Shown one piece after another: positions 32,743 through 55,873 of a DNA stretch of 64,000 bases (positions are counted from its first letter, which is position 1; the number at the start of each line of letters is the position of its first letter). Origin of the DNA: Pseudomonadota bacterium. Its GTDB lineage: Bacteria > Bdellovibrionota > UBA1018. The notes below the pieces were generated by a model. It saw only the letters and a program-made list of their open reading frames with translations, ran no database searches and was not told the origin of the DNA. A program made the translations under genes and the position numbers. The stretch spans positions 930,932 to 994,931 of the forward strand of contig JAIXQO010000003.1 of the NCBI GenBank assembly GCA_027485695.1, in the 5' to 3' direction.

Positions 32743-33708
32743 GTGGTAATTCGATCATTTTTCAGTCGATCCGTCTTATGGGTGGCGATCGCGTGCGCTG
32801 CTGCCGGTTGCGGTAAATCCGAGAAGTCCTGCGAAAGTGATGAGGGCCGTAAGGCCATCGCGGAGGCCGTGAACGAGCACTTAAATACGGGGCAGTGCTC
32901 GCTTGCCGTCGCCGAAATCGATCCTTACTGGAACAAAGAGGGCTGTGGCACCGATGAAATCCGTTTGGCGCGTGCTTCGGCCTATGCCTGCGCGCTGGGC
33001 ATTAATTTCTTTGATCTGATTGCGCGTCTCACAGACGCTGATCTCTCGGCTTCGGGATTTTGGGCGACGTTCAACGCGCTCTTTCCTGCGACGGTAGGAG
33101 ACTCTCGACCGACTGCTGGAAATCGAGCGCTCGATGCGCTGTTTTCGATTCAATACCCGGGAGCCATCAATCGTCCGCAGTACACGATCAACGCTTCGAC
33201 TCCGAATCCGGGCGCGCTCGTCGCCGCTCATCGAACCACGGATTCAAACATCTACGCGCTTCTGACATCGATGGGTATGATGGGCGTTTTGCAGAATCTG
33301 TACGGCGCTCCAAATGCGACCACTTATAAAATCACCAAAAAACTGGGCGCCTCCGGGAACGGCTGGCAGGAAGTTGCGACCATGACCGAAGACGGTTGTG
33401 CTTACGCGGGGTCCATTCTGACGTTTGTCGATTCGGTAAACCAAGTGGCCGCGGTTCTCTCTTCGAGTTTTGGTAGCAAAGTCGCAGAGAAGCTACTCAC
33501 CATCACGGGTGGGCTTAATTTAGACGTCGCTTGCAAAGCAGGTTGTGATGGTACGTCAGGTTCGGGATGCACGGCTTCGTGCACGACCTGTCCAATCGAG
33601 CTTCGTGCCCGAACGGGATGCAAGGTGGGTGCGGCGGCTACGACGGATGACCTCAGTTGCGCGGCGGCTGGAATTGTCAAGGCGGTGAATCTGACGAATG
33701 GTCAATAG
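32743..33708 (+). CDS. Cys-rich lipoprotein of unknown function
   Basis: 321 aa from a GTG at 32743, preceded by GGAG; an ATG at 32719 in frame has no ribosome site. The signal peptide ends in the lipobox CAAAGC, so the mature protein is lipid-anchored. It carries many Cys (CESDEG, GQCSLA, EGCGTDE, and a CKAGCDGTSGSGCTASCTTC run near residue 275), suggesting a disulfide-rich periplasmic protein. Its 3' end overlaps the downstream barrel gene by 11 nt, so the two probably work together at the outer membrane. No family recognised. Confidence 0.75.
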   Translation: MVIRSFFSRSVLWVAIACAAAGCGKSEKSCESDEGRKAIAEAVNEHLNTGQCSLAVAEIDPYWNKEGCGTDEIRLARASAYACALGINFFDLIARLTDADLSASGFWATFNALFPATVGDSRPTAGNRALDALFSIQYPGAINRPQYTINASTPNPGALVAAHRTTDSNIYALLTSMGMMGVLQNLYGAPNATTYKITKKLGASGNGWQEVATMTEDGCAYAGSILTFVDSVNQVAAVLSSSFGSKVAEKLLTITGGLNLDVACKAGCDGTSGSGCTASCTTCPIELRARTGCKVGAAATTDDLSCAAAGIVKAVNLTNGQ

Positions 33709-34798
33709 ATCTCGTCTTTTGATGATTGCCGTTTTGGTTGCAGTCTTGAGCCCGGATGCTCGAGCCACGATTCCGCGTTCGCTCTACCAAGCTCCCGAGG
33801 CGATGGCGATGGGGCAGGCGGTAACGAGCTGGATCGATGATCATCAGGCGCTCTGGTACAACCCAGCCGGTGCTGCCGCGTTCGACTCGCTCGAGTGGAG
33901 AATGATGACCCTGGATCTTGGCGCCACTCACGATGTTTACGCATCAAAAGATGCGATTAAAAAACTGAAGAAACCCACCGTTCGTGACGTGAACCAATTC
34001 ATGGGCAAGGACCTTTACATACAAGGGAACGCGGCAACGAGTTTGATACTACCGCAGATCGGTATTGCGGCCATGTATGATGTCCGCGCCGGTGTGACGC
34101 CGACGAACCAAGTGTTTCCGCGCATCGAGTTTGGCTATGTGCGCACGGGAGGTGCGCAGTTGTCTTTCGGGTTTTCATCCAAGGATGGCGGACTCCGTCG
34201 CCGAGGCCGACGGAAAAAAGAAGCGACCGAGAATGAATGGCGATTCGGCGTGGGTGCGAAGTATTTCGTCCGTCGAGGGGAGTCGAAAATCCTGACCGCC
34301 GGCGAGCTTTTCAATTTGAATAAGGAAAACGCGCTCGAGGCGATTCAAGGCAAGGGATCCAGTTACGGCGGCGACCTCGGCGTGCAACGGATTCAGCGCA
34401 TCGACTCGATCACCACTCTCAGTTGGGGCCTGTCTTACTTGAATATCGGTGATCTGGCGTTTGATAACAAGGTCGAGGCCGTGAAATCGAGTCTCAACAC
34501 GGGCGTCGGTGGGCAGTGGGATTTGGGTCTTCCTAAAATCACTGTCGGGTTCGACGTTCATCACTTGCTTCGTTCCGACGATTTCCGTAAGAAAACCCAT
34601 TTCGGCGCGAAACTTAGGCTGCCCATCCTCTCTTTTTATCTCGGACTCAACCAAATGCGACCGACGTTTGGTGCATCGGTCGACGTCTGGCTCGTTCGCG
34701 TCTCTGCCGTGAGTTACAACGAAGAACTCGGCGAGCTCTATGGCGCCAATACGTCGAGGCGTTATCTCACGCGCGTCGAATTCAAACTGGAGTTCTGA
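33698..34798 (+). CDS. Predicted outer membrane beta-barrel (FadL/TraF-like)
   Basis: 366 aa. A signal peptide ends near ARATIP. The N-terminal QAPEAMAMGQAVTSWIDDHQALWYNPAGAA resembles the start of FadL-type and TraF-like barrel proteins (surface Asn-Pro-Ala motif). Repeated amphipathic strands follow, and the protein ends in Phe (VEFKLEF), a barrel-assembly signature. It overlaps the upstream lipoprotein by 11 nt, giving a barrel plus lipoprotein unit. The 3' end overlaps the convergent FAD oxidoreductase by 37 nt. Substrate is unknown. Confidence 0.75.
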   Translation: MVNRSRLLMIAVLVAVLSPDARATIPRSLYQAPEAMAMGQAVTSWIDDHQALWYNPAGAAAFDSLEWRMMTLDLGATHDVYASKDAIKKLKKPTVRDVNQFMGKDLYIQGNAATSLILPQIGIAAMYDVRAGVTPTNQVFPRIEFGYVRTGGAQLSFGFSSKDGGLRRRGRRKKEATENEWRFGVGAKYFVRRGESKILTAGELFNLNKENALEAIQGKGSSYGGDLGVQRIQRIDSITTLSWGLSYLNIGDLAFDNKVEAVKSSLNTGVGGQWDLGLPKITVGFDVHHLLRSDDFRKKTHFGAKLRLPILSFYLGLNQMRPTFGASVDVWLVRVSAVSYNEELGELYGANTSRRYLTRVEFKLEF

Positions 34799-35790
34799 TC
34801 TTGGAGTAGGGCATTTGCGGCTTGATGGCCGGAGCGAAACGCGCTTTCGATTCCTCCATCTTGAAACGTGTCTCCAGCGATGAGCACCGAGAGATCATTT
34901 TTAACGATCATTCGGTGTGTTCCCGGGAGCCGTTGGTGCGGTTCTGAGTACCGCCAGCGATGAAGCGCAGGGGCGACGCCGGGTTCTGATGCGATGGAGT
35001 TTCCGAAAATTTTTTTTGCTTCCGCGATAGTGAAGTCCACGACTTCTTGCTCTGGACGATCGAGCCAAGCTTGAGACGCTGATTCGCTCAGATGAAAAGT
35101 CACCCAGTTTTGCCTGCCCGGAAGCCCTTTGGTGCGTTGATCGTAGATGCCGTCGAAATTTTCATTGGGGGTAAACGCGAATCCCGAGTGCGACTCGATC
35201 AATCGGCGCTCGAATGCGATCAATACCGCGAGGCAAATGCGATAGGTGACTGAGCGGAGTTCTTGGGTGACCGGAGAGGAGCTGAGTTCAGAGGCGTCGA
35301 GCAGTGCGACCGTTTGAGGCATCGGAGGTGTCAGGATCAATGCGGAGGCATAGACCTCGCGGCCCGACTCACATTCCAATTTCCAACGCCTCGGCTCTGG
35401 AGTGGATTCGAATCGAATAACGCGATTTTCGAATTCGATCGGGGCATGCTCGATGGCACACGAGTCCGCTAGGCACTGAGCCAAGTCGCGCATCCCTGTT
35501 TTAAGTGTGTAACGAGATTCACTCGAGTTGTTCGGACTCGGGACAGACTGAATGACCGGAGCGAGGGCCGAAAGGGCATCCCTCCAGCGCGGTTGGTTTT
35601 GGGTGAAGCATTGCGCGCCAAAATCGAGGATTTCGCCGCGGGCACGTCTCGAAGCGATACGTCCACCCACGCCTCGACTTTTTTCAAGTGTGAGAACGCG
35701 GAGTCCCTGCTGGACGAGCAGACGCCGGGCCGACAGTCCGGCGATTCCTGCACCGACAATTGCTACGTCACAAACCTCGATGGGATTCAT
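34762..35790 (-). CDS. FAD-dependent oxidoreductase (renalase/amine-oxidase type)
   Basis: 342 aa. The N-terminal FAD-binding Rossmann motif VAIVGAGIAGLSARRLL is followed by TLEKSRGVGGRIASRR, the typical amine-oxidase/renalase GG-GR signature. A C-terminal LIAGDTFQDGGIESAFRSG gives the second FAD contact. The middle resembles renalase-like NAD(P)/FAD oxidoreductases. It is the third gene of an operon with the azoreductase (23-nt overlap) and the haem-oxygenase-fold gene, downstream of a promoter carrying the 24-bp palindrome. Substrate unknown; the context suggests a prenyl-lipid or quinone reaction. Confidence 0.85.
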   Translation of the reverse strand: MNPIEVCDVAIVGAGIAGLSARRLLVQQGLRVLTLEKSRGVGGRIASRRARGEILDFGAQCFTQNQPRWRDALSALAPVIQSVPSPNNSSESRYTLKTGMRDLAQCLADSCAIEHAPIEFENRVIRFESTPEPRRWKLECESGREVYASALILTPPMPQTVALLDASELSSSPVTQELRSVTYRICLAVLIAFERRLIESHSGFAFTPNENFDGIYDQRTKGLPGRQNWVTFHLSESASQAWLDRPEQEVVDFTIAEAKKIFGNSIASEPGVAPALHRWRYSEPHQRLPGTHRMIVKNDLSVLIAGDTFQDGGIESAFRSGHQAANALLQDQNSSLNSTRVR

Positions 35791-36409
35791 GTGTGGTAGC
35801 CGAGTGGTGTGCGATTAAACGCGTCAGCCGTTCGAGTGCGTTGTCGAGCGATTGAGCGGCGTCGAGCGCAGTCGATTCGGCCGGAATCAGGTGAATCCGC
35901 TTGGAACCCAAGAAGTGGAAGAGCTGTTTCAAATAGGGGCCAGTGTGGTCGAGCATGTGGGTCTCTGGATTACTGTAGGCTCCGCCCGAAGCCGTGACAA
36001 TAAATACCTCCAGGTCAGGATTCAGGAGACCTTCGGGACCATTCGCGCCGTAACGAAACGTCACTCCGACTCGAACGATGTGATCAATCCATGCCTTGAG
36101 TACCGATGGTACGGAGAAATTCCACATCGGGGTGGAAATGACCAAGGTGTCGGCCGCTTGGAGCTCCCCGCAGAGCTGATCTGAGAGCGCGAGCAAGGCA
36201 GTTTGCTCCGGAGACCGAGAATCGGGAGGAGTGAAGAATGCCTGTACCAGCTCTCCCGAGACGTGAGGGAGCGGGGATCGATTGAGATCTCGGATTTGAC
36301 TCGAGAACCCGGATTTTGCGCCGGTCAGCGCTGTTTTCAGGCGTTCGGCAACTGTACGACTTACGGAGTGCTCTCCGCGTGGGCTTGCGTGAATTTCTAG
36401 AAGTTTCAT
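35768..36409 (-). CDS. azoR: FMN-dependent NADH azoreductase/quinone reductase
   Basis: 213 aa from the ATG at 36409; the track start adds 23 residues translated from the upstream gene region. Flavodoxin-like fold: LEIHASPRGEHSVSRTVAERL, the FMN-phosphate loop, PMWNFSVPSVLKAWIDHIVR (highly typical of AzoR) and VTASGGAYSN. AzoR proteins reduce azo dyes in assays but are mainly two-electron quinone reductases. The start overlaps the stop of the 36406 gene by 4 nt. Its presence beside prenyltransferase genes fits quinone redox cycling, which is an inference. Confidence 0.88.
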   Translation of the reverse strand: MKLLEIHASPRGEHSVSRTVAERLKTALTGAKSGFSSQIRDLNRSPLPHVSGELVQAFFTPPDSRSPEQTALLALSDQLCGELQAADTLVISTPMWNFSVPSVLKAWIDHIVRVGVTFRYGANGPEGLLNPDLEVFIVTASGGAYSNPETHMLDHTGPYLKQLFHFLGSKRIHLIPAESTALDAAQSLDNALERLTRLIAHHSATTHESHRGL

Positions 36410-37101
36410 TTTCCGGCTCCCGTCGCGAGTAAGCGTTCCGCCATCGATTCCGATAGCGCATCGACATAAAAACGACACTGTTGTTGAAGTGAAAGATCGC
36501 TCTCCGATACGAAGTGCTTGAGGATGATAAATCCATTCTCTCCATGTTGGATCTCAGCTTCGCCCGAGCGAGATTCGAGCCACTCGGCTTGGTTCGAGTC
36601 CAGACCGTAACGTTCCCGACAGGCGGCGAATAACGGCCCGATCATCCAAGGGACGAGTGATTCGATTCCCACGTTGAGGGCGGCCGTACCGACTTGCCAA
36701 GGCAAGTCCGTACTGTAAATGGCCGAGCGCAGGAGGGCATCGTGCTGAATCCAGTTCGCATGCGGTCGATAGACCCAAGGCGATTTCCCGATGAGTTCCC
36801 TAGGCCCGCCGAAACGATCGACAATACGACCGAGGATATCCGTATCTCCGTCTTTGTCTTCGGCGCGCCCTTGAAGAAGGTCGCCCACCTCGGGAGGACG
36901 TTTTTTCATCAAATGTTCAACATGTTTACCGAAATCAAGGAGGTGCCAGAACAAGCCTGAAAAATATCGTTCGGCCTGGGAGTCGGTCGCGGTTCCGGAT
37001 TTCATCGCGTTCATGAACGGGTGATTCTGAATTTGGTTCCGGCGCGGGAGGATGGTTTCTCGGTAGATTTCTTCGAGCCAACTAGGAAGCGTCGTGGTCA
37101 T
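36406..37101 (-). CDS. Haem-oxygenase-fold iron-containing redox protein (PqqC/TenA/CADD-like)
   Basis: 231 aa, all helical, no signal peptide. FSGLFWHLLDFGKHVEHLM and the late GEAEIQHGENGFIILKHF contain His/Glu residues placed like the metal ligands of haem-oxygenase-like di-iron or PqqC-type oxidases; HPFMNAMKSG near residue 30 is also typical of the family. These enzymes catalyse varied oxidations, such as CADD in aminobenzoate synthesis and PqqC in ring oxidation. First gene of a three-gene operon whose promoter carries the 24-bp palindrome. The exact reaction cannot be assigned. Confidence 0.7.
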   Translation of the reverse strand: MTTTLPSWLEEIYRETILPRRNQIQNHPFMNAMKSGTATDSQAERYFSGLFWHLLDFGKHVEHLMKKRPPEVGDLLQGRAEDKDGDTDILGRIVDRFGGPRELIGKSPWVYRPHANWIQHDALLRSAIYSTDLPWQVGTAALNVGIESLVPWMIGPLFAACRERYGLDSNQAEWLESRSGEAEIQHGENGFIILKHFVSESDLSLQQQCRFYVDALSESMAERLLATGAGK

Positions 37102-37107
37102 GGTTTA

Positions 37108-37136
37108 GATGTAGCGAGTTTCTTTTTGAAGTTCAA
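37108..37136 (-). promoter_or_regulatory. Putative leaderless promoter of the redox operon
   Basis: On the minus strand TTGAAC (37131-37136) and TACATC (37108-37113) are separated by 17 nt, and the ATG at 37101 begins 6 nt after the -10. The -35 element lies inside the palindrome at 37128-37151, so a bound regulator would block polymerase. Confidence 0.6.
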
Positions 37137-37151
37137 TATGTATTAAACTTC
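37128..37151. promoter_or_regulatory. 24-bp operator, copy 1
   Basis: GAAGTTCAA-N6-TTAAACTTC, an inverted repeat with one mismatch between 9-bp arms. It shares its outer arms and 6-nt spacer with copy 2 at 37739-37762 on the other side of the regulator gene. It overlaps the -35 region of the redox operon promoter. Confidence 0.7.
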
Positions 37152-37196
37152 GAAAGAAAGGGGCTCGATCTTTGTTCAAGAATTGTCGAACAAGTG

Positions 37197-37213
37197 TCGA
37201 GGGAGTTCCTCGA
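37197..37213 (-). terminator. Hairpin after the regulator gene
   Basis: TCGAGG-GAGTT-CCTCGA is a perfect 6-bp stem directly after the stop of the regulator gene. No T tract follows on the minus strand, so termination would be weak. Confidence 0.35.
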
Positions 37214-37214
37214 T

Positions 37215-37703
37215 CTAAACTTCGAACAAGGGAGAATCGATGAGGCCCGTCAAAATGGATTCGGTTTCGCCAATGAAGCGTCCCAGCTCCTCGATACGTT
37301 TTGAATCGAGAGTGTTCTTGCCGCTTTTCTCCAGTTTTTTCAGAGAAATATGCGTTTTTTTGATGAGCTGGAGTTCGCGTTTTTTGAGCACGGTCCGAAT
37401 GGCCGAGGCCAGGTTCGGGTTCGGAGCATAGTAGACCGTCCTGCCGGTACCGCGCGCACACTCTTGAATGACATCGAACTGGAGGAGCTCCGGAAGCGCC
37501 AGGCTCACCAGGGCTTTGGAAACCTTAAGTTTCTGAGCGAGTTCGATCGAGGAGAGGGGTTCCTTGTGAATATAGAGGAGCGCCCAGATTCTACCTTGGA
37601 CGTTTTTGAACCCCCAATACTCGATGAATTCTCCGACGTTTTGAACAAAATCCTGGGTTTCCGACGATAAAGATGGAGAATTTGTGCCGCTCTTTTTTGC
37701 CAT
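37215..37703 (-). CDS. GbsR/MarR-like winged-helix repressor
   Basis: 162 aa. FIEYWGFKNVQGRIWALLYIHKEPLSSIELAQKLKVSKALVSLALPELL matches the GbsR-type winged helix (WG-x-GRIxALLY is characteristic), followed by a wing (GTGRTVYYAPNP) and a helical C-terminal dimerisation part. It lies exactly between two operons whose promoters share one 24-bp palindrome, and is divergent from the prenyl-lipid operon, so it is the obvious candidate to bind those sites and autoregulate. The ligand is unknown. GbsR proteins are best known in choline/glycine-betaine control, but many relatives regulate other pathways. Confidence 0.85.
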   Translation of the reverse strand: MAKKSGTNSPSLSSETQDFVQNVGEFIEYWGFKNVQGRIWALLYIHKEPLSSIELAQKLKVSKALVSLALPELLQFDVIQECARGTGRTVYYAPNPNLASAIRTVLKKRELQLIKKTHISLKKLEKSGKNTLDSKRIEELGRFIGETESILTGLIDSPLFEV

Positions 37704-37728
37704 GAAAAGAGCTTAACACAAAACACGT

Positions 37729-37757
37729 TTGAGTTTTCGAAGTTTAACTGTTATTAA
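37729..37757 (+). promoter_or_regulatory. Putative leaderless promoter of the prenyl-lipid operon
   Basis: TTGAGT (37729-37734), 17-nt spacer, TATTAA (37752-37757). The ATG at 37765 begins 7 nt after the -10. The operator at 37739-37762 covers the spacer, the -10 and the start region. Confidence 0.65.
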
Positions 37758-37762
37758 ACTTC
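37739..37762. promoter_or_regulatory. 24-bp operator, copy 2
   Basis: GAAGTTTAA-N6-TTAAACTTC, perfect 9-bp arms. It is placed over the promoter of the polyprenyl synthase gene and within the divergent region shared with the regulator gene. Same consensus as copy 1. Confidence 0.75.
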
Positions 37763-37764
37763 AT

Positions 37765-38679
37765 ATGGAACTTTGGTCTTGGACTCCCACGCCCGACCTG
37801 CCGATCGTCGACGAAGCAGTGAACGATGTGCTGCTCAAGGGCGGCAAAAAGATCCGTCCACTGCTCGTGGAAATGATCGCAACCGGCTTAGGCGTTCCCG
37901 ATGATCAGTGGAAGATTTGCGCGAGATGCGTCGAATGGGCGCATGCGGCGACGCTCTCTCACGATGACGTCATCGACGAATCAAAACTTCGTCGAGATCA
38001 GCCGACGCTGAATGCGGTCGTGGGAAACACGCGTGCCGTGCTTACCGGCGATATTTTGCTTTCGCGCGTAATCGGTGAGCTAGCGGCGCTGGGTAACCTC
38101 GGTGTGCTTCGCGAAATGGCGCTTGCAGTCGAGCACCTGGTGACCGGTGAATGGTTGCAACTCGACGCCCGCTGGAATTTTGAGATTGACCCAGTGGTGC
38201 TCAAGAAAATCGCCGAACTGAAAACGGGTTCGCTCTTGGCTTGGGCGTCGGTGGCTCCGGGCATGCTTCGGGGACTGGAGACGCCGGATCTTGAGGCGCT
38301 GCGAAGTTTTGGAGTTCAGTCAGGGCGCGCGTTTCAGCTGATCGACGATTTGATTGATTTTTTGCCGACGGGTGGAAAGCCTTTTGCCCAAGACCTTCGC
38401 GAAGGATTAGTGAATCAAGCCGCACTACGGGTGTTTTCGCATGATCGAGAATCCGAACGTGTGCTGCGCGCGGCGTTCGGAGAAAAATTCGTACCGGAAC
38501 GGTTTCTTAAGTTCTCGGATCTCGCTTTGAAACGGATGGAGATAGAGCTGAGGTCCGAGGCGGGGTTTCATCTGCAAGAGGCGAGTCGATCGCTTCAGCA
38601 GTTGAAACCCCATTTTGAAAAAAATTCATTCAGACAGCTCAATGAATGGTTACAGCAATGGGAGAAGCGAATCGTATGA
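37765..38679 (+). CDS. Polyprenyl diphosphate synthase (trans-isoprenyl, IspB/HepT type)
   Basis: 304 aa from the ATG at 37765. Condenses isopentenyl diphosphate onto allylic primers. Visible motifs: GGKKIRPLLVEM near residue 27, first Asp-rich motif SHDDVIDESKLRRDQPT (DDxxD) near 75, KTGSL near 160 and second Asp-rich motif FQLIDDLIDFLP (DDxxD) near 200. Chain length cannot be fixed from sequence. First gene of an operon continuing with a UbiA-type prenyltransferase (4-nt overlap), an NTF2-like protein and a UbiB kinase, so its product is probably the prenyl donor for them. Promoter covered by operator copy 2. Confidence 0.9.
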   Translation: MELWSWTPTPDLPIVDEAVNDVLLKGGKKIRPLLVEMIATGLGVPDDQWKICARCVEWAHAATLSHDDVIDESKLRRDQPTLNAVVGNTRAVLTGDILLSRVIGELAALGNLGVLREMALAVEHLVTGEWLQLDARWNFEIDPVVLKKIAELKTGSLLAWASVAPGMLRGLETPDLEALRSFGVQSGRAFQLIDDLIDFLPTGGKPFAQDLREGLVNQAALRVFSHDRESERVLRAAFGEKFVPERFLKFSDLALKRMEIELRSEAGFHLQEASRSLQQLKPHFEKNSFRQLNEWLQQWEKRIV

Positions 38680-39740
38680 ATGTAGGCAAAGAACGTTGGG
38701 AACCGATTCAGTCCCCCGAGGCTCAGGCACTCCTTTGGAACGGTCGATGCCGGGAGAGTGGAGATGACTACCAGGTCATCGCCGAGCAGGTGGTTCGAGA
38801 CCGGGTTCGGTTTCGTTTGGTGCCCAGCCAAGAAATGGAAAAACCGCCCGCGATCGTTCGCTACTGGGCATCGATTCGCGCGATCAGTCTGACGGCGACG
38901 TTTTCTCCGGGGTTGCTCGTTGCGCTCGCGGGTTGGGTGGCAAAACGTGAGTTTCATTTTGGCCTTTGGGCGCTCGCCACGCTAGGCGCCGTTTTGTTCC
39001 AAATCGCGGTGAATACGTGGAACGATGTCGAAGACCATTTGAAGCTCATTGATCTACCGGGCGGACTGGGAGGCAGCGGCGTGATTCAAAAAGGCTGGAT
39101 GACCGCACTTGAAGTGAGGCGTCTGGGTATCGCTGCCCTTGTTTTAGGGATCGCATGTGGCTTACCGGTCGTCTGGATCAATCCGAAACTCATGATCATG
39201 ATCGCTGCAATCGCGCTCGTCGGAACTTGGGGCTACTCGGGCTGGCCATTTCGATTCAAATATCGCGCGGCAGGTGACATCACCGTTGGGGTGCTCTGTG
39301 GGCCAGCCCTGACCGCGGGTTACGCGGTCGCGGCGTTCGGTACGGTCGAGTCGATGGATCTCGTTCTGGGCTGTGTCACTGGTCTATTGGCAATCGGGAT
39401 TCTACACGCGAATAATTTGCACGATATTGAAACGGATCAATCTCGAGGTGGGAAAACTTGGGCATCCGTGATCGGGTTCGGTCGCTCGATCCGATTCTTA
39501 GGCGCGCTCTATGCGATCTCCGCATTTGCAGAGTTCTGGATCTCCGCTCAACTGGGTTGGGCAGTTTTCGGTGCGGCCGTTCTCTCCTCAGTGCTCCTCG
39601 CGCGGTTTTGGTTCAAAGTTCGTCATGCATCCGGACCATGGGACCCAAAAATTCGGTTGATTCGGTTCGAAGCCGCGCAGATGCACCTCGCATGCTGCAT
39701 ACTCTTGGCAGTAGGACTTGCTCTCCAAACAGTTTTTTAG
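38676..39740 (+). CDS. UbiA/MenA-like membrane prenyltransferase
   Basis: 354 aa from the ATG at 38676 that overlaps the previous stop by 4 nt. About 70 soluble N-terminal residues are followed by multiple membrane helices. The prenyl-diphosphate-binding motifs are present: NTWNDVEDHLKLID (NDxxD) and LHANNLHDIETDQSRGGKT (DxxxD). LGGSGVIQKGWMTALEVRR resembles the MenA branch (COG1575), which prenylates dihydroxynaphthoate in menaquinone synthesis. The N-terminal extension is unusual for MenA. It probably attaches the polyprenyl chain made by the upstream synthase to an aromatic ring; the ring substrate is unknown. Confidence 0.85.
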   Translation: MNVGKERWEPIQSPEAQALLWNGRCRESGDDYQVIAEQVVRDRVRFRLVPSQEMEKPPAIVRYWASIRAISLTATFSPGLLVALAGWVAKREFHFGLWALATLGAVLFQIAVNTWNDVEDHLKLIDLPGGLGGSGVIQKGWMTALEVRRLGIAALVLGIACGLPVVWINPKLMIMIAAIALVGTWGYSGWPFRFKYRAAGDITVGVLCGPALTAGYAVAAFGTVESMDLVLGCVTGLLAIGILHANNLHDIETDQSRGGKTWASVIGFGRSIRFLGALYAISAFAEFWISAQLGWAVFGAAVLSSVLLARFWFKVRHASGPWDPKIRLIRFEAAQMHLACCILLAVGLALQTVF

Positions 39741-39756
39741 GCGAAAGGCGTATCAG

Positions 39757-40173
39757 ATGTCGAATTCAGGTTCGAATTTAGCAAAATTGTTTTTGGAAAA
39801 ATTCTACCAGGCGATCGATTCCCGTGAACCCGCGCGATTCTCTGAGTTTTTTGCGGAGGACGGCGAGTTCATATTCGGAAACTATCCGGCCTCTCGGGGC
39901 CGCGCCGAGATCGAGGCGGCAGCTCAAGGCGTGTTTACCGCGGTCGACGATATTCGCCACGAGCTCAAGACTTACTCCGCCGACCCAAGCGGGCGACTCC
40001 TGATGGAAGGACAAGTCTACTACCGCAAGAAAAACGGAGTAGTCATCCAAGTCCCGTTCGCCTGCGGTATGACGCTGGACTCGCAGCTAAAAGAAGTGAA
40101 TGGCAGCCTCGCGCCCGCGAGAGTGCGCCATTATCAAGCTTATGTGGATCTCGCGCCGCTTTGGAGCGGGTGA
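39757..40173 (+). CDS. NTF2/SnoaL-like protein
   Basis: 138 aa from the ATG at 39757 (GAAAGG upstream). The cone-shaped NTF2 fold is suggested by FLEKFYQAIDSREPARFSEFFAEDGEFIFG, an Ala/Glu-rich helix (GRAEIEAAAQGVFTAVDDI) and the closing strands VRHYQAYVDLAP. Proteins of this fold act as cyclases, isomerases or ligand binders. It is placed between the prenyltransferase and the UbiB kinase (gaps of 16 and 9 nt), so a role on the prenylated product is likely but unproven. Confidence 0.75.
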   Translation: MSNSGSNLAKLFLEKFYQAIDSREPARFSEFFAEDGEFIFGNYPASRGRAEIEAAAQGVFTAVDDIRHELKTYSADPSGRLLMEGQVYYRKKNGVVIQVPFACGMTLDSQLKEVNGSLAPARVRHYQAYVDLAPLWSG

Positions 40174-40182
40174 GCCACCGCT

Positions 40183-41454
40183 ATGAAACGCGCCTGGAAA
40201 CTTGCATCGCTGGCCGGGGGGCTTCTGGTTGAAGAAGCGAAACGTAAATTCGCATTTCAACAAACGTCACTCACACGATTGAATCAAGTTCGAGCATTGG
40301 TCGTGGAGCTGAGTCGACTCAAAGGCAGCGCCATGAAGCTGGGGCAACTTTTGGCTCTAGAGGCGGTGGATTTCCTTCCTCCCGAGGCGATGGCAATCTT
40401 GGATCGTTTGCAGAATCAGGCCGATTTTTTGCCATTCGATCAGGTGAATGCTGTTTTGCGGGCGGAGCTCTGGAGCCATGTTCATCGGTTCGAGTCGATT
40501 GATGAAATTCCGATCGCGGCCGCAAGTCTCGGACAGGTCCATCGTGCCCGTTTCGAAGGCAATGAAGTGGTACTCAAGGTGCAATACCCGGAGGCGTCGA
40601 AAAATCTCGATTCGGATCTGAAATTAGTCGGAGGGATCGCAGAGCGCTTGCTTCCGCTACTAGTAAAAACCGATTTTGACGCCCGCGAATGGATGGCGAC
40701 CGTTCGGGAGGGATTCCTCGATGAGCTGAACTACTCGCGGGAGGCTCATTGGAACGAGGTTTTCCACCGCTACTATCTCGGGCATCCGCACATCAGTGCG
40801 CCTCGCGTGTACCGCGAACTCTGCACGTCACGCGTACTCGTCTCGGAGTACGCGTCGGGTAGATCGATTTCGAGTTTTACTGGCGCAAGCGAACTCCCTG
40901 CTTCCTCGCGGGAACTGATTTCAAATCTAATGATGGAAGTATTCACGCGCGAATTCTGTGAAATCGGCGCCGTTCAGAGTGATCCGAATCTCGGAAATTT
41001 CCTTTGGAATGAAAATAAATCACAGCTCGTGCTGCTCGACTTCGGAGCGACCCGCGAGTTCTCTCCGGCGTTCCGTCGCAACTACTCGAGATTCATTGTA
41101 GCCGCGCTCGACCAAGATACGCCGCGAATGCTCCGACTGGCGCAGGAGATCGGGGTGTTTTCCGAGCTAGAGAGTGACGAGGCTCGATCGATTTTCGTGG
41201 CGATGATCGAACGAAGCGTGGAGCCGTTTAGGACCGCTCATTTTGATTTTAGCTCGGCCACCTATGCCGATGATTTGCGCAAACTCGGATTTCTACTCAT
41301 CGGTAAACTCAAGCACACTCCGCCGCCCAAGGATCTATTTTTCGTGCAACGGAAACTCGGCGGCGTCTTTCAGATATTGCGTCGACTGGGAGCGCGAATC
41401 GATTTGCAGCCTCATTTGGAGCCGTTCCGAAAGTGTGCCGAGCTTGTGACCTAA
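40183..41454 (+). CDS. UbiB/ABC1-family atypical kinase
   Basis: 423 aa. Hallmarks of the family: KxGQ motif in SRLKGSAMKLGQLLALE near residue 50, Ala-rich loop AAASLGQVHRARF near 110, VVLKVQYPEA (Lys), QSDPNLGNFLW and LLDFGATREF (catalytic Asp residues). UbiB/Coq8 proteins support quinone synthesis by extracting lipid intermediates. The C-terminal membrane helices of UbiB are not obvious here, as in shorter ABC1 proteins. Same operon as the polyprenyl synthase; the combination strengthens the quinone-lipid interpretation. Confidence 0.88.
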   Translation: MKRAWKLASLAGGLLVEEAKRKFAFQQTSLTRLNQVRALVVELSRLKGSAMKLGQLLALEAVDFLPPEAMAILDRLQNQADFLPFDQVNAVLRAELWSHVHRFESIDEIPIAAASLGQVHRARFEGNEVVLKVQYPEASKNLDSDLKLVGGIAERLLPLLVKTDFDAREWMATVREGFLDELNYSREAHWNEVFHRYYLGHPHISAPRVYRELCTSRVLVSEYASGRSISSFTGASELPASSRELISNLMMEVFTREFCEIGAVQSDPNLGNFLWNENKSQLVLLDFGATREFSPAFRRNYSRFIVAALDQDTPRMLRLAQEIGVFSELESDEARSIFVAMIERSVEPFRTAHFDFSSATYADDLRKLGFLLIGKLKHTPPPKDLFFVQRKLGGVFQILRRLGARIDLQPHLEPFRKCAELVT

Positions 41455-41498
41455 TTTAAGATCTCCATCCCCATCCATTATTCATCTCAGAGGTTCTG

Positions 41499-42749
41499 AT
41501 GAAAACGTTTTGTCTGTTTTTGATTTTGCAGTTTTTCTATATTCCGATTTCTCAAGCGACCGTTGGCATTCAACTCGAGTCACCTTCGGCAGTCGGACTT
41601 GGTCGGGCTGGTAGCTCGGGGGCGAGTCGGGATTCCGTCGTCGAGGCATTGGGTACGAATCCGAGTTTAGTTTTTTCGCCGGAGCGGAATCGGCAAATGG
41701 AAATCGGTTTCGGCACGCTCTTCCTGAACGTCGAGGCAAAAAATGGGCAGTCCGCGCCGTTCGGTGGGACGAACCAGTTTCTCTCGAGTTCGAAATCCAA
41801 CGCTTGGGTCGGATCTTTTGGGTATTCGCAAAACCTTTCTGATCGTTGGTCGATCGGAGCAGGGATGCTGCCAGAGGCGGGATTGACCTCGGATTTCGGC
41901 AAAAAGACCGAACTCCTGGAGCTAGCGCCTGAGCTTGCGTTTCTCAAGATTCCCGTCGCCGTCGCCTACCGCACCGAAGAGGGATTTCAGGTGGGATTGG
42001 CACCCGCACTCGGCCTCGCTCAATACGCTACGAACTATTCCAAGACGATCGGTACGCAATCGCAATCGGATCGATCGGCCAAATGGACGACTGGGCTTGG
42101 TCTATCGGCAGGCGCCTCTTGGTTTGGCTCAGAGTGGGGTGTGGGTCTGTCTTGGCGCTCGAAAACGAGTTACTCGCTTCGTGAATTCGCGGATCTTGAT
42201 CAGTTCGGCCCCAATGCGAATGTTGGACTCGATACACTCCCGCTCGATAGTCCGGAACAATGGGGCTTGGGCGTCTCGTGGCAACTCAATGAACAATGGA
42301 GACTCCTCTCGGATCTTAAGCACACTCGGTGGGGTGCGGCGGACGGTTTTCGCGAGTTTGGATGGGATTCTCAGTGGGTGGGTTCTCTTGCGGCTGAGCA
42401 CCGCCGCGACGATTGGACATTTCGTGCAGGCTGGAGTCAGTCGACTCCGGTTTTCCGTTCCGAGTCGGGACGCGCGGGGGCCCAGACAAGAAGAGTGGGC
42501 GATCATACGCTCTATGAATCGAGCATCGATTTGTTCAATGTCATCGGTTACCCGGCGGTACTGACGTCGACGGCCACGGTTGGCGCAACTTGGGATACCG
42601 GCGAGACGGGAAAATGGGATCTGGGAATCGCGCATAGTTTTCAGAAAACGGTCGAGCGTTCGGGAACCGATGCTTATTCTTTGCCCTATCGATATGAGGC
42701 ACGTCTCTCCGTGACTACAGTTCTGGTGGGCTATCGTTACGCTTTTTAG
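41499..42749 (+). CDS. FadL/OmpP1-like outer membrane transporter
   Basis: 416 aa. A signal peptide is followed by QLESPSAVGLGRAGSSGASRDSVVEALGTNPSLV, which matches the N-terminal hatch segment of FadL proteins (GRAGxxxA...NPA type). Long alternating strands follow and the protein ends YRYAF, a barrel end signature. FadL channels admit hydrophobic molecules. GAGG-type ribosome site at 41490 and a 45-nt gap after the UbiB gene suggest it may belong to the same transcript. The 3' end overlaps the convergent Cry-DASH gene by 35 nt. Confidence 0.82.
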   Translation: MKTFCLFLILQFFYIPISQATVGIQLESPSAVGLGRAGSSGASRDSVVEALGTNPSLVFSPERNRQMEIGFGTLFLNVEAKNGQSAPFGGTNQFLSSSKSNAWVGSFGYSQNLSDRWSIGAGMLPEAGLTSDFGKKTELLELAPELAFLKIPVAVAYRTEEGFQVGLAPALGLAQYATNYSKTIGTQSQSDRSAKWTTGLGLSAGASWFGSEWGVGLSWRSKTSYSLREFADLDQFGPNANVGLDTLPLDSPEQWGLGVSWQLNEQWRLLSDLKHTRWGAADGFREFGWDSQWVGSLAAEHRRDDWTFRAGWSQSTPVFRSESGRAGAQTRRVGDHTLYESSIDLFNVIGYPAVLTSTATVGATWDTGETGKWDLGIAHSFQKTVERSGTDAYSLPYRYEARLSVTTVLVGYRYAF

Positions 42750-43971
42750 TCCATCGGTTTCGGTAGGCACGGTCCGGATCATAAAGTTCGGCTTGGCGTT
42801 GGGTTGAGAACACGCGATCGCGTGGATCATTCCCAACGCCGGCCAGATAGGTCCAATTCCCGTAGTTTGATGCGCAATCGTAGTCGATCAGATGTTGCTC
42901 AAAAAATTCAGCGCCGAGTCTCCAATCCACTCGGAGTGATTTCGCAAGATAACTTGCGACATTCTGTCGTCCCCGGTTCGACATCCATCCGGTACTCAAA
43001 AATTCATTCATGTGGGCATTGACGAAGTCGCAGCTCGTCTCGGCTCTGCACCATTTTTCGAAGTCCTCTTGCGAGCCATCTCGGTAGCGCGCGGATCGAA
43101 AAATCGAGGCGCCTTTTTGTACGAGCACTAACCGAAAATATTCCCGCCACAGAATTTCATAGTAAAACGCGCGCGAAGATTTCGTAATGCCTTGTTGTTT
43201 TTCGTCCTCAAGTATTGCTCGAGCGATCTTTGCGGCTGAAACCGAGCCTACAGAGAGCGCCGGAGAAAGTTTGGACGAATCATCCCACTCCAAAAGCCCG
43301 TTGCGTGTCTCGGCATATTGATCCATCAAACGCCGATCCGAGATGTAAGTTTGAAGCCATTCTCTCGCGTGAGCTTCGTGGAGCTGAACCCGGGGATGGA
43401 GATCGCTCGGCACGATTTCGGTTTGTGGATCAAAAATCCAGCTATCCTGGCCCAAATTCGGAACGAGGGGTTTTGGTACTTGATTCGGTACAGGGACCGA
43501 AGCCCAAGGCAATTGGCTTGCTTCCACCAGTTTTCTAAATGCGCTAAAGGTCGAAGGGGTATTTGAAATTTCAAACGGCAGGCCATTCCAATCAAATAGA
43601 TTCGAATCCGAAAAAGTTCGCCAAGCCGTTCCGCTCAGTTGCTCCTGGATTTTCTTCGTCTCCTTTTGTTCTTCAAAACCCGGATCATCGGTCGAGTAGA
43701 TCGTATCCACCGAATGCTCGCGTACGAGTCGGGGTATCATTCGTTTCGCCGGCTCGAGCGTGGCAACGACCTGAAATCCGAGTCCTCGCAATGTTTTGAA
43801 ATAGTGATCGAGTGCGGAGAGTACCGTGCTTCGGCGGAAACGTTTCGCTCGCAAGAATGAGGGGCTTGCACACCAGAGAATCAGACCGGATGACGATTCT
43901 GCCGCAAACGCCGAGAGTGCCCGGTGATCTTCTAACCTAAAATCATTTCTGAGCCAGTAGATTGAATTCAT
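42715..43971 (-). CDS. Cry-DASH type cryptochrome/photolyase
   Basis: 418 aa. Photolyase N-terminal domain (IYWLRNDFRLEDHRAL), FAD-binding C-terminal domain with the strongly diagnostic Cry-DASH block STGWMSNRGRQNVASYLAKS, DWRLGAEFFEQHLIDYD and NYGNWTYLAGVGNDPRDRVF. Cry-DASH proteins repair cyclobutane dimers mainly in single-stranded DNA and may act as light sensors. The short C-terminal tail is normal for bacterial members. The start overlaps the stop of the upstream photolyase by 4 nt, so both are made together. Confidence 0.93.
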   Translation of the reverse strand: MNSIYWLRNDFRLEDHRALSAFAAESSSGLILWCASPSFLRAKRFRRSTVLSALDHYFKTLRGLGFQVVATLEPAKRMIPRLVREHSVDTIYSTDDPGFEEQKETKKIQEQLSGTAWRTFSDSNLFDWNGLPFEISNTPSTFSAFRKLVEASQLPWASVPVPNQVPKPLVPNLGQDSWIFDPQTEIVPSDLHPRVQLHEAHAREWLQTYISDRRLMDQYAETRNGLLEWDDSSKLSPALSVGSVSAAKIARAILEDEKQQGITKSSRAFYYEILWREYFRLVLVQKGASIFRSARYRDGSQEDFEKWCRAETSCDFVNAHMNEFLSTGWMSNRGRQNVASYLAKSLRVDWRLGAEFFEQHLIDYDCASNYGNWTYLAGVGNDPRDRVFSTQRQAELYDPDRAYRNRWTKKRNDSPPEL

Positions 43972-45482
43972 CGAGAGATCGCCTGGGTTTTCTTGAGTGA
44001 ATGCCGTTCGAGCACTCGCTCGGTTTCTTTTTGTACTGATTCTGACTGGAGTCTTTCGAAAATGCGAACTTTCGCCCGGTCGTACGCCGCGCGTGGATCC
44101 ACAATCGGAGCCGGGTAGCTGGTCCCTAGGCGAAATCCACGGGACCCGGCTAAGAGAGGCGGGGTGAGATCGGGCCGGGCGAGGTCGGCTGGGTCAAGAA
44201 CGCGGAGTTCCGGGCAGTATTTCAAAACGAATTTTCCATCCCGGTCCCAGTCGCACTGCTGTTTTTCGGGTGAATAGATTCGAATCGTCTGACCTCCGGT
44301 GACCCCCGATTGCATTTGGAATTGATACCAATGGATTCCTGGTTCGAAATCGAGAAAATAGCGCGCCAGAAAACGTGCGGGACGTTCCCAGTGCAACCAG
44401 AGTTGGTAGGCGGCAAAACTGGCAAGCATCGCCCGCATACGAAAATTGATCCAACCGTTTTGTCGAAGCGCTCGCATGCAAGCATCGATCATCGGAAACC
44501 CTGTTTCTCCTCGGCACCAGGCCTCGAAGTACTCTTCGTTGAATTCAGTTTCGCGAAGCCCATCGAAACCTCGATGGACGTTCCTCCATTCGATTTCGGG
44601 CTCGGTCTCGAGTTTCTGAATGAAATGACATCTCCAGGCCAAGCGACTGGAGAATGCCTGGAGTTGTTTCATTTGATTTTGATCGAGCGGCGACCGGGGA
44701 TCGAGCGTTGCAAGTCGTGATTGAATTCGGTGGTGAATCTCGCGGGCAGAGATGAGTCCCCAGCTGAGATAGGGGCTCAGGCGACTGCTGCTTTGGGTTG
44801 CTAAAAGGGGAGAGGAAATGTGTTTTAAGTATTGGGAACTTCGGGTCTGAAGAAAAGAGTCCAGTGCGAGTTCTGCGCTGTTTCTCGTGGCAAGCGGTAT
44901 GTGTTTGAGCTCCGAGTGAGGTAGCCCGAGTTCTTGAGAGGTGGGGATGGCGAGTTGTCCTTCGCGCGAGAATGGGGAGGACAACGGATGAATGGATCGG
45001 AGTGGACGAGAGATCCATTCGTCTCGGCGCGTTTGCCAGTGATTTCGATTCTGGAGACCGCGAATGACGCCGGTTTGTTGGAACTCTCGCCAAGGAATTC
45101 CTTGTTCTCGGCACCAAGTTTTAACCCGCTTGTCTCGTTGGAATGTCCAGTTCAGACCCGTTTCTTCGTGGCTCAGGAGAGCCTGAGGTGGAAACGTTTT
45201 CTTCAGTTCCTCGAAGACACCTGGAATTTCCCCCTGGAGAACGATCAGCCGCACACCTTTGCGATAGAGCTCTCGGTCAAGATCGATCAGCGCTGATCTC
45301 ACAAACTCATAGTGGCTGGTTTCGAATTCGGGGCTTTTTAGCCATTCGTTTTCGATGACGTAAATAGCCACGCAGGCGCCGCGCGAGCTCCCAAAATACA
45401 ACGCTTCATGATCCTGAATGCGGAGGTCTCGTTTCAGCCAAATCCAGTTGAATCGGCAGGAAGGATCAGTATCGGGAACCAT
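43968..45482 (-). CDS. Cryptochrome/deoxyribodipyrimidine photolyase family protein
   Basis: 504 aa. The photolyase Rossmann-like domain begins FNWIWLKRDLRIQDHEALYF and the FAD domain includes RLSPYLSWGLISAREIHHRI, FPMIDACMRALRQNGWINFRMRAMLASFAAYQLW and GIHWYQFQMQSGVTGGQTIRIYSPEKQ. The last block is typical of a photolyase branch distinct from Cry-DASH and from classical PhrB. Light-driven dimer repair or light sensing is expected. First of two coupled photolyase genes; a 273-nt gap separates its start from phoH. Confidence 0.9.
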   Translation of the reverse strand: MVPDTDPSCRFNWIWLKRDLRIQDHEALYFGSSRGACVAIYVIENEWLKSPEFETSHYEFVRSALIDLDRELYRKGVRLIVLQGEIPGVFEELKKTFPPQALLSHEETGLNWTFQRDKRVKTWCREQGIPWREFQQTGVIRGLQNRNHWQTRRDEWISRPLRSIHPLSSPFSREGQLAIPTSQELGLPHSELKHIPLATRNSAELALDSFLQTRSSQYLKHISSPLLATQSSSRLSPYLSWGLISAREIHHRIQSRLATLDPRSPLDQNQMKQLQAFSSRLAWRCHFIQKLETEPEIEWRNVHRGFDGLRETEFNEEYFEAWCRGETGFPMIDACMRALRQNGWINFRMRAMLASFAAYQLWLHWERPARFLARYFLDFEPGIHWYQFQMQSGVTGGQTIRIYSPEKQQCDWDRDGKFVLKYCPELRVLDPADLARPDLTPPLLAGSRGFRLGTSYPAPIVDPRAAYDRAKVRIFERLQSESVQKETERVLERHSLKKTQAISR

Positions 45483-55387: not shown

Positions 55388-55873
55388 ATGCAGTTCTCGA
55401 AAACCGAATTCCGCGGCAAACCGACCGAATGTTTCACCACCGAAACTTGGCTGGCCCAGCCCATCGACAAAGTCTTTGAGTTCTTTAGCTCCGAGAAAAA
55501 CCTGGAAATCCTGACCCCCGATTTTCTGCAATTTCGTGTGCTCGGCATGGACACGCCGCAAATCCAGGAAGGGACGCTGATCGACTACCGTCTCAAGATT
55601 CACGGAATACCGGTGCGCTGGCGGACTCGGATCGAAGAGTGGAAACCCGGCCATCATTTCGTCGACACCCAGCTCAAGGGGCCTTACTCACTCTGGCACC
55701 ACCGGCACGAGTTCACCGCTGAAAACGGCGGGACGCGAATGCGAGACCGAGTGATGTTTCGTTTGCCGCTGGGTGGGCTTGGGATGCTCGTGGCGGGCGC
55801 ATTTGTACGCAAAGACGTGCGGCAGATTTTCGAGTACCGCGAACGGAAACTTGCCGAGCTTTTTCCTCGTTAG
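55388..55873 (+). CDS. SRPBCC-family lipid/ligand-binding protein
   Basis: 161 aa. The START-like fold is indicated by TTETWLAQPIDKVFEFFSSEKNLEILTPDF, WRTRIEEWKPGHHFVDTQLKGPYSLWHHRHEF and the closing GGTRMRDRVMFRLPLGGLGML. Relatives are often annotated as ligand-binding SRPBCC or cell-division inhibitor-like proteins. It follows sthA by 6 nt in the same direction, so it is probably co-transcribed. The ligand is unknown. Overlaps the convergent 55870 gene end by 4 nt. Confidence 0.8.
   Translation: MQFSKTEFRGKPTECFTTETWLAQPIDKVFEFFSSEKNLEILTPDFLQFRVLGMDTPQIQEGTLIDYRLKIHGIPVRWRTRIEEWKPGHHFVDTQLKGPYSLWHHRHEFTAENGGTRMRDRVMFRLPLGGLGMLVAGAFVRKDVRQIFEYRERKLAELFPR

Follow-up and report, generated by a model that had tools for sequence, protein, structure and literature searches.

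Two operons that flank a GbsR/MarR-like repressor gene carry the same palindrome at their promoters, and homologues of their genes keep this palindrome in related genomes where they lie on separate contigs. The operons are part of a stretch of 64,000 nucleotides (the window) from a Pseudomonadota bacterium of the Bdellovibrionota, UBA1018, uncultured and related to predatory bacteria (assembly GCA_027485695.1, contig JAIXQO010000003.1, positions 930,932 to 994,931); the genome holding it comprises 4.05 Mb on nine contigs and is 93% complete, and the closest named relatives found in the search are uncultured 'Oligoflexia' metagenome-assembled genomes (MAGs). The best explanation, for which we see about as much reason to believe as to doubt, is that these genes constitute a derepressible pathway whose product, made conditionally, would be an aromatic or quinoid lipid with a long tail.

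According to this model, an autoregulated repressor of the GbsR/MarR type would bind the palindrome near the start codons of its targets and keep the genes off until an inducer appears. On derepression, the polyprenyl diphosphate synthase (PPS) would make a long isoprenoid tail and the prenyltransferase, here called UbiA2, would join this tail to a ring, either aromatic or a quinol. UbiB might assist steps that act on the lipid in the membrane, in the way known from the metabolism of ubiquinone and of plastoquinone/tocopherol, and AzoR might keep the ring reduced. The haem-oxygenase-fold (HO), SnoaL-like and renalase-like proteins may modify the ring or change its redox state, and FadL may carry a hydrophobic precursor or the product through the outer membrane. 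Most likely, the product would serve as a conditional redox lipid under oxidative or light stress, and not as a housekeeping respiratory quinone. With its delimited set of genes, its DNA switch and its few carriers, the system would offer a handle on one lineage without a known quinone pathway, and the operator delimits the putative pathway unusually cleanly, because genes that are clustered in one species and scattered in another keep the same site.

A palindrome shared by linked and unlinked genes

The putative operator is a 20-bp palindrome, AGTTTAA-N6-TTRAACT. Operator 1 (37130-37149; AGTTTAATACATATTGAACT, an exact match to the pattern with 28.9 bits) is located about 30 bp upstream of the HO operon, and operator 2 (37741-37760; AGTTTAACTGTTATTAAACT, exact on both strands) lies between the repressor and PPS genes, ending 5 bp before the PPS ATG. 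With up to two mismatches, these two sites account for four matches over both strands of the window against 0.41 expected, a number reached in none of 100 shuffles of the window, and no further palindrome was found within the 64 kb. A position-specific scoring matrix (PSSM), built partly from the two window sites themselves, gave 27-29 bits at these sites versus 7 bits at the next best place. The original prediction, made from the letters of the window without database searches, had placed both operons under one operator; this was right, and is stronger than had been stated, since the palindrome recurs at the same genes in other genomes.

The regulator gene (37215-37703, minus strand) shows helix-turn-helix family matches, including PDB 1ku9, and its homologues are annotated 'GbsR/MarR family'. 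A weak match to CudC scored far below the NCBIfam cut-off, and the protein was therefore not assigned as CudC. With the winged-helix domain of the family and a palindrome at its own promoter, it is predicted from sequence only to be a repressor of the GbsR/MarR type, and the palindrome is its putative binding site. The nearest GbsR homologue examined adjoins a cytochrome bd operon and not a prenyl cluster. Elsewhere in the window genome, an operator-like site with one mismatch (C3:130401; L161:8402-8421) precedes, by about 200 bp, a gene for an RrF2-type regulator, and a cysteine desulfurase-like gene comes next; this site may be due to chance or may mark a further regulon member.

The HO gene is present in 4 of 117 genomes of relatives, namely the window genome (G000), G015, G021 and G032, and a search of 368 genomes from the phylum added no further carrier. 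G015, G021 and G032 are MAGs, 87-96% complete (87% for G032). In all four, the palindrome or a variant of it differing in one or two bases stands upstream of both the HO and the PPS gene. An AzoR-like gene follows the HO gene in G015 and G021 too, and regulator homologues are found beside PPS-UbiA in the same two genomes. In G021, HO-AzoR and regulator-PPS-UbiA are located on different contigs with a palindrome at each, and a 17-bit variant precedes the regulator gene in G032.

The operator pattern was searched in the four whole carrier genomes with at most one mismatch, and the flanking genes were then inspected. This search returned seven places in G015: two coincide with the promoters of HO and PPS, three stand beside homologues of the SnoaL, UbiB and FadL genes of the window (36, 46 and 47% identity, respectively), each on a separate contig, and no regulon member could be tied to the other two. 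One place in G021 leads to a FadL homologue (45% identity), and a weaker, PSSM-scored site is present at a SnoaL homologue. A held-out PSSM, derived from the HO and PPS promoter sites only, gave 21.6-26.8 bits for the SnoaL, UbiB and FadL sites of G015 and the FadL site of G021, and the SnoaL site of G021 reached 15.6 bits. The first four had been picked up by the pattern search, which leaves their scores partly dependent on it; which genes follow these sites is an independent observation. Because unlinked homologues in other genomes keep the same palindrome, the genes are, as far as sequence comparison can tell, a conserved regulon and not a chance neighbourhood, in agreement with the joint gene system proposed earlier.

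Since the renalase-like gene is not under operator control in G015 and G021, its product is probably an accessory member in the window genome only. Sites in other carriers also adjoin additional genes: in G021, those for a CarH/LitR-like B12-binding regulator and an SRPBCC protein, and in G032, one for an epimerase of the DUF1731/TIGR01777 type. Moreover, a HiPIP gene follows the HO gene in G032, and genes for HMG-CoA reductase and then MsrAB are located downstream of PPS-UbiA2 in G015. The window also encodes an SRPBCC-type protein (55388-55873, plus strand) that resembles the one at the G021 site (L157:8181-8744); there is no operator at the window copy. Two adjacent photolyase/cryptochrome genes lie beside the cluster (42715-45482, minus strand), and were dropped as regulon members for want of a nearby operator. 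The MsrAB of G015, the CarH/LitR-like and SRPBCC genes of G021, the epimerase of G032 and these photolyases provide a circumstantial link to stress.

Several observations weigh against a conditional lipid pathway. No NTF2, UbiB or FadL homologues were found in the 87% complete G032, and no close UbiB homologue in G021; the PSSM scan detected no operator at the window photolyase genes; and part of the operator sites came from a search for the pattern itself. In addition, no gene of the regulon was found to code for an enzyme that makes a known ring, and repressor binding and the inducer remain predictions.

Gene content of the two operons

The HO operon is encoded on the minus strand and starts with the HO gene (36406-37101), followed by a gene for an AzoR/flavodoxin-2 quinone reductase-like protein (35768-36409; Flavodoxin_2, 2e-44), whose ATG overlaps the HO stop codon. 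The start of the third gene, coding for a renalase-like flavin adenine dinucleotide (FAD) oxidoreductase (34762-35790; Pfam Amino_oxidase, 4e-26), overlaps the end of the AzoR gene; the FAD protein is of the amine-oxidase type, and its nearest solved relative is a bacterial renalase (PDB 4zcc, E=4e-23, nearly full length). Convergent with the renalase-like gene is a gene for an outer-membrane-type protein with a weak PorV-family match (33698-34798, plus strand).

The second operon, on the plus strand, encodes PPS (37765-38679; polyprenyl_synt, 1e-47), UbiA2 (38676-39740; UbiA, 1e-22), a SnoaL/NTF2-like protein (39757-40173; SnoaL_2, 3e-9), a UbiB/ABC1 atypical kinase (40183-41454; ABC1, 1e-54) and a FadL/TodX outer-membrane transporter (41499-42749; Toluene_X, 9e-20). 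Stop and start codons overlap as ATGA at HO/AzoR and PPS/UbiA, which is consistent with two tight operons. Profile searches upheld the families and positions proposed for the two operons around a GbsR-like repressor. All eight genes and the regulator are present as proposed; several starts, however, lie further in than those of the mechanical open reading frames, and were corrected from the sequence to ATG codons at 37765 (PPS), 38676 (UbiA), 39757 (NTF2) and 36409 (AzoR). The proposed prenyl-lipid or quinone-type content is likewise borne out by the family assignments and by the HMG-CoA reductase gene downstream of UbiA2 in G015.

Prenyltransferase UbiA2 and polyprenyl diphosphate synthase

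UbiA2 fits the UbiA superfamily, having a PF01040 domain with both aspartate-rich motifs (NDxxDxxxD and DxxxD) intact and an N-terminal extension of about 60 amino acids. Its best NCBIfam models are MenA-like, but it scores below their cut-offs, and in the tree it is split from MenA (of E. coli and of the men clusters of the same phylum) by a branch with 100/99 support. UbiA2 is MenA-related but stands in a clade of its own. Haem O synthase is the only other UbiA-family protein in the window genome. PPS keeps both DDxxD motifs, and its best NCBIfam matches include long-chain (solanesyl/octaprenyl/heptaprenyl) models. A search of plasmids with the UbiA protein gave distant matches only.

The PPS-UbiA2 pair is widespread across the phylum. 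In the carriers, UbiA2 has an intact second aspartate motif; most genomes with the men pathway have a degenerate one: MenD was detected in one of eight genomes with the intact motif versus nine of ten with the degenerate one (Fisher p=0.003, not corrected for relatedness). At L046, L047, L049 and L050, from other families of the phylum, PPS-UbiA2 with a degenerate second motif stands beside S-adenosylmethionine-methyltransferase, SpoIIE-type and citrate synthase genes, and UbiA2 is perhaps non-catalytic or altered in its role there.

Haem-oxygenase-fold protein

The HO protein is the best conserved member of the regulon, with 61-68% identity between carriers versus 35-50% for UbiA2. It has no Pfam match above threshold (TENA_THI-4, E=0.063), neither the protein nor its profile gave a direct match in the PDB, and plasmids yielded distant matches only. 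Profile alignment with hhalign connected it (E=8e-9, probability 96%) to a Haem_oxygenas_2 protein annotated as 'iron-containing redox enzyme', whose solved relatives are CADD/para-aminobenzoate (pABA) synthase and PqqC. The fold that had been recognized is therefore real but distant.

HDO enzymes have a 3H/3C ligand set (PMC13108848), and CADD has a sacrificial tyrosine, Tyr27. The HO proteins of the four carriers have Met, Ile, Thr and Met at the aligned position, and a function as CADD-type pABA synthase or ring source was rejected on the absence of this tyrosine. The three His and three carboxylate ligands of CADD are at positions 81, 88, 142, 174, 178 and 181. E142 and H181 have kept equivalents in the HO protein (E147 and H186), and H88, H174 and D178 are unmatched, in a two-step alignment of about 26% identity. 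From sequence comparison, the HO protein probably carries the signature step of the pathway. A more specific proposal, which we put forward tentatively and with more doubt than confidence, is that the regulon makes an undescribed long-tailed isoprenoid quinone or quinone-like lipid that does not depend on Men, futalosine or Ubi head-group chemistry, the signature step being that of the HO-fold protein.

Quinone pathways in the window genome and its relatives

The search for known quinone pathways bears on further readings. MenD was not found in the window genome, although the same query detects it in 36 or so relatives; MenF was not found there either, and MenB queries gave only enoyl-CoA-hydratase-like matches (29-35% identity). 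The MqnA/MqnD family (PF02621) is absent from all 117 genomes and was detected in 4 of 14 control genomes. Ordinary menaquinone synthesis with the cluster prenyltransferase as the only MenA, the case, with men genes elsewhere in the genome, that the original prediction had named as its own refutation, would agree with the MenA-like profile matches of UbiA2 and the lack of another candidate in the genome. It is hardly credible, and was rejected, in view of these missing men and Mqn genes in a 93% complete genome and of the tree position of UbiA2; moreover, the relatives G001 and G017 have both a men pathway and a UbiA2 gene. Ubiquinone synthesis was dismissed as well, since E. coli queries did not find UbiC, UbiD, UbiX or UbiH in the window genome; the UbiE query gave just a weak methyltransferase match of 109 residues. 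The cluster thus matches no known quinone pathway, as had been suspected, and a separate complete menaquinone or ubiquinone route was not found in the genome.

The window genome nevertheless encodes complex I and a haem-copper oxidase, and the cluster might supply the organism with a respiratory quinone of its own through an undescribed route replacing the Men, futalosine and ubiquinone pathways. The status of UbiA2 as the only non-haem UbiA-family protein, the presence of UbiB and the occurrence of the intact second motif mostly in genomes without MenD would fit such a route. However, cluster-free relatives of the same family (G003, G010, G018, G020 and G024, and G028 and G030 of the same genus) also encode complex I and an oxidase, and no MenD, MqnA, UbiD, UbiX or UbiA2 was found in them. 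Because these relatives show the same lack, it cannot be credited to the cluster, whose product is for the same reason less likely to be the sole respiratory quinone; the family either takes up quinone or has a pathway not recognized here. A dedicated repressor would also be unusual for a housekeeping quinone, and the distribution is patchy (4/117), so that we consider this route unlikely. In a survey of 26,264 bacterial genomes, many lineages were without a known quinone pathway, and further quinones may await discovery (PMC13386864).

The regulon might instead serve salvage, in which FadL admits a quinone or a ring precursor originating from prey or a neighbour, AzoR reduces it, and PPS with UbiA2 gives it the organism's own tail. 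MenA tailing of foreign rings is known from the menA-only salvage of Streptococcus agalactiae (PMC6030563). UBIAD1, the vertebrate tail-remodelling enzyme, is the best solved relative of UbiA2 (E=2e-8), FadL and AzoR are within the regulon, and ring-forming genes were not found in the window genome. Against this, uptake and a predatory life style of the organism are only conjectural, UbiA2 lies outside the MenA clade, and the roles of the HO-fold and SnoaL proteins are left unexplained; salvage, too, appears improbable. A conditionally made, long-tailed aromatic or quinoid lipid is the reading that we compare with known systems below.

Comparison with known systems

Like the ubiquinone pathway (UbiA, UbiB, IspB), the regulon combines a polyprenyl synthase, a UbiA-superfamily enzyme and a UbiB-family kinase, but the window genome differs in the missing UbiC, UbiD, UbiX and UbiH and the lack of a convincing UbiE. 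With the menA-only salvage of S. agalactiae (PMC6030563) it shares a MenA-like prenyltransferase and the absence of other men genes, whereas UbiA2 forms a separate clade and is accompanied by a dedicated repressor and extra tailoring genes. The HO protein has its fold in common with the HDO enzymes CADD and UndA and with cofactor-free PqqC (PMC13108848), to which it is distantly related through the Haem_oxygenas_2 protein, and departs from CADD in the replaced Tyr27 and in several ligands unmatched as aligned. The ebo/edb operon with EboC/Ubi-297 (PMC5133447, PMC9235831) is likewise a conserved operon around an orphan UbiA-superfamily prenyltransferase whose product is not established; its TatD-like hydrolase, sugar phosphate cyclase, TIM-barrel protein and phosphodiesterase partners are missing from the window cluster.

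In Corynebacterium glutamicum, the MarR-type regulator CrtR controls the crtE-crtEb cluster in a light-dependent manner (PMC6739363). Membership in a CrtR regulon would entail regulated carotenoid genes and a repressor that is released by prenyl diphosphates or light. There, too, an autoregulated MarR-type repressor is divergent from a prenyl diphosphate synthase gene, a UbiA-superfamily enzyme belongs to the cluster and the operator at the promoter contains TTAA (PMC5401885, PMC6739363); genes for photolyases and epimerases are recurrent neighbours of CrtR, as near the window cluster and the G032 site. This resemblance, together with the CarH-like gene at the G021 site, raises the possibility that UbiA2 is a carotenoid elongase in a carotenoid-type pathway under a CrtR-like regulator. 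We find this very improbable: the regulon, the only part of the genome looked at for carotenoid genes, contains no carotenoid enzymes and in particular neither a phytoene synthase nor a desaturase, UbiA2 is closest to MenA models, the top NCBIfam scores of PPS include long-chain quinone-type models and not CrtE, and UbiB and AzoR suit quinone chemistry better. The regulator is GbsR-like, its orthology to CrtR being no more than conjectural, and the regulon differs from the CrtR cluster in that its genes are dispersed under one operator and include UbiB, AzoR, HO-fold, SnoaL and FadL. For the control of the candidate lipid pathway, CrtR of Corynebacterium is nevertheless, by analogy, the closest working model.

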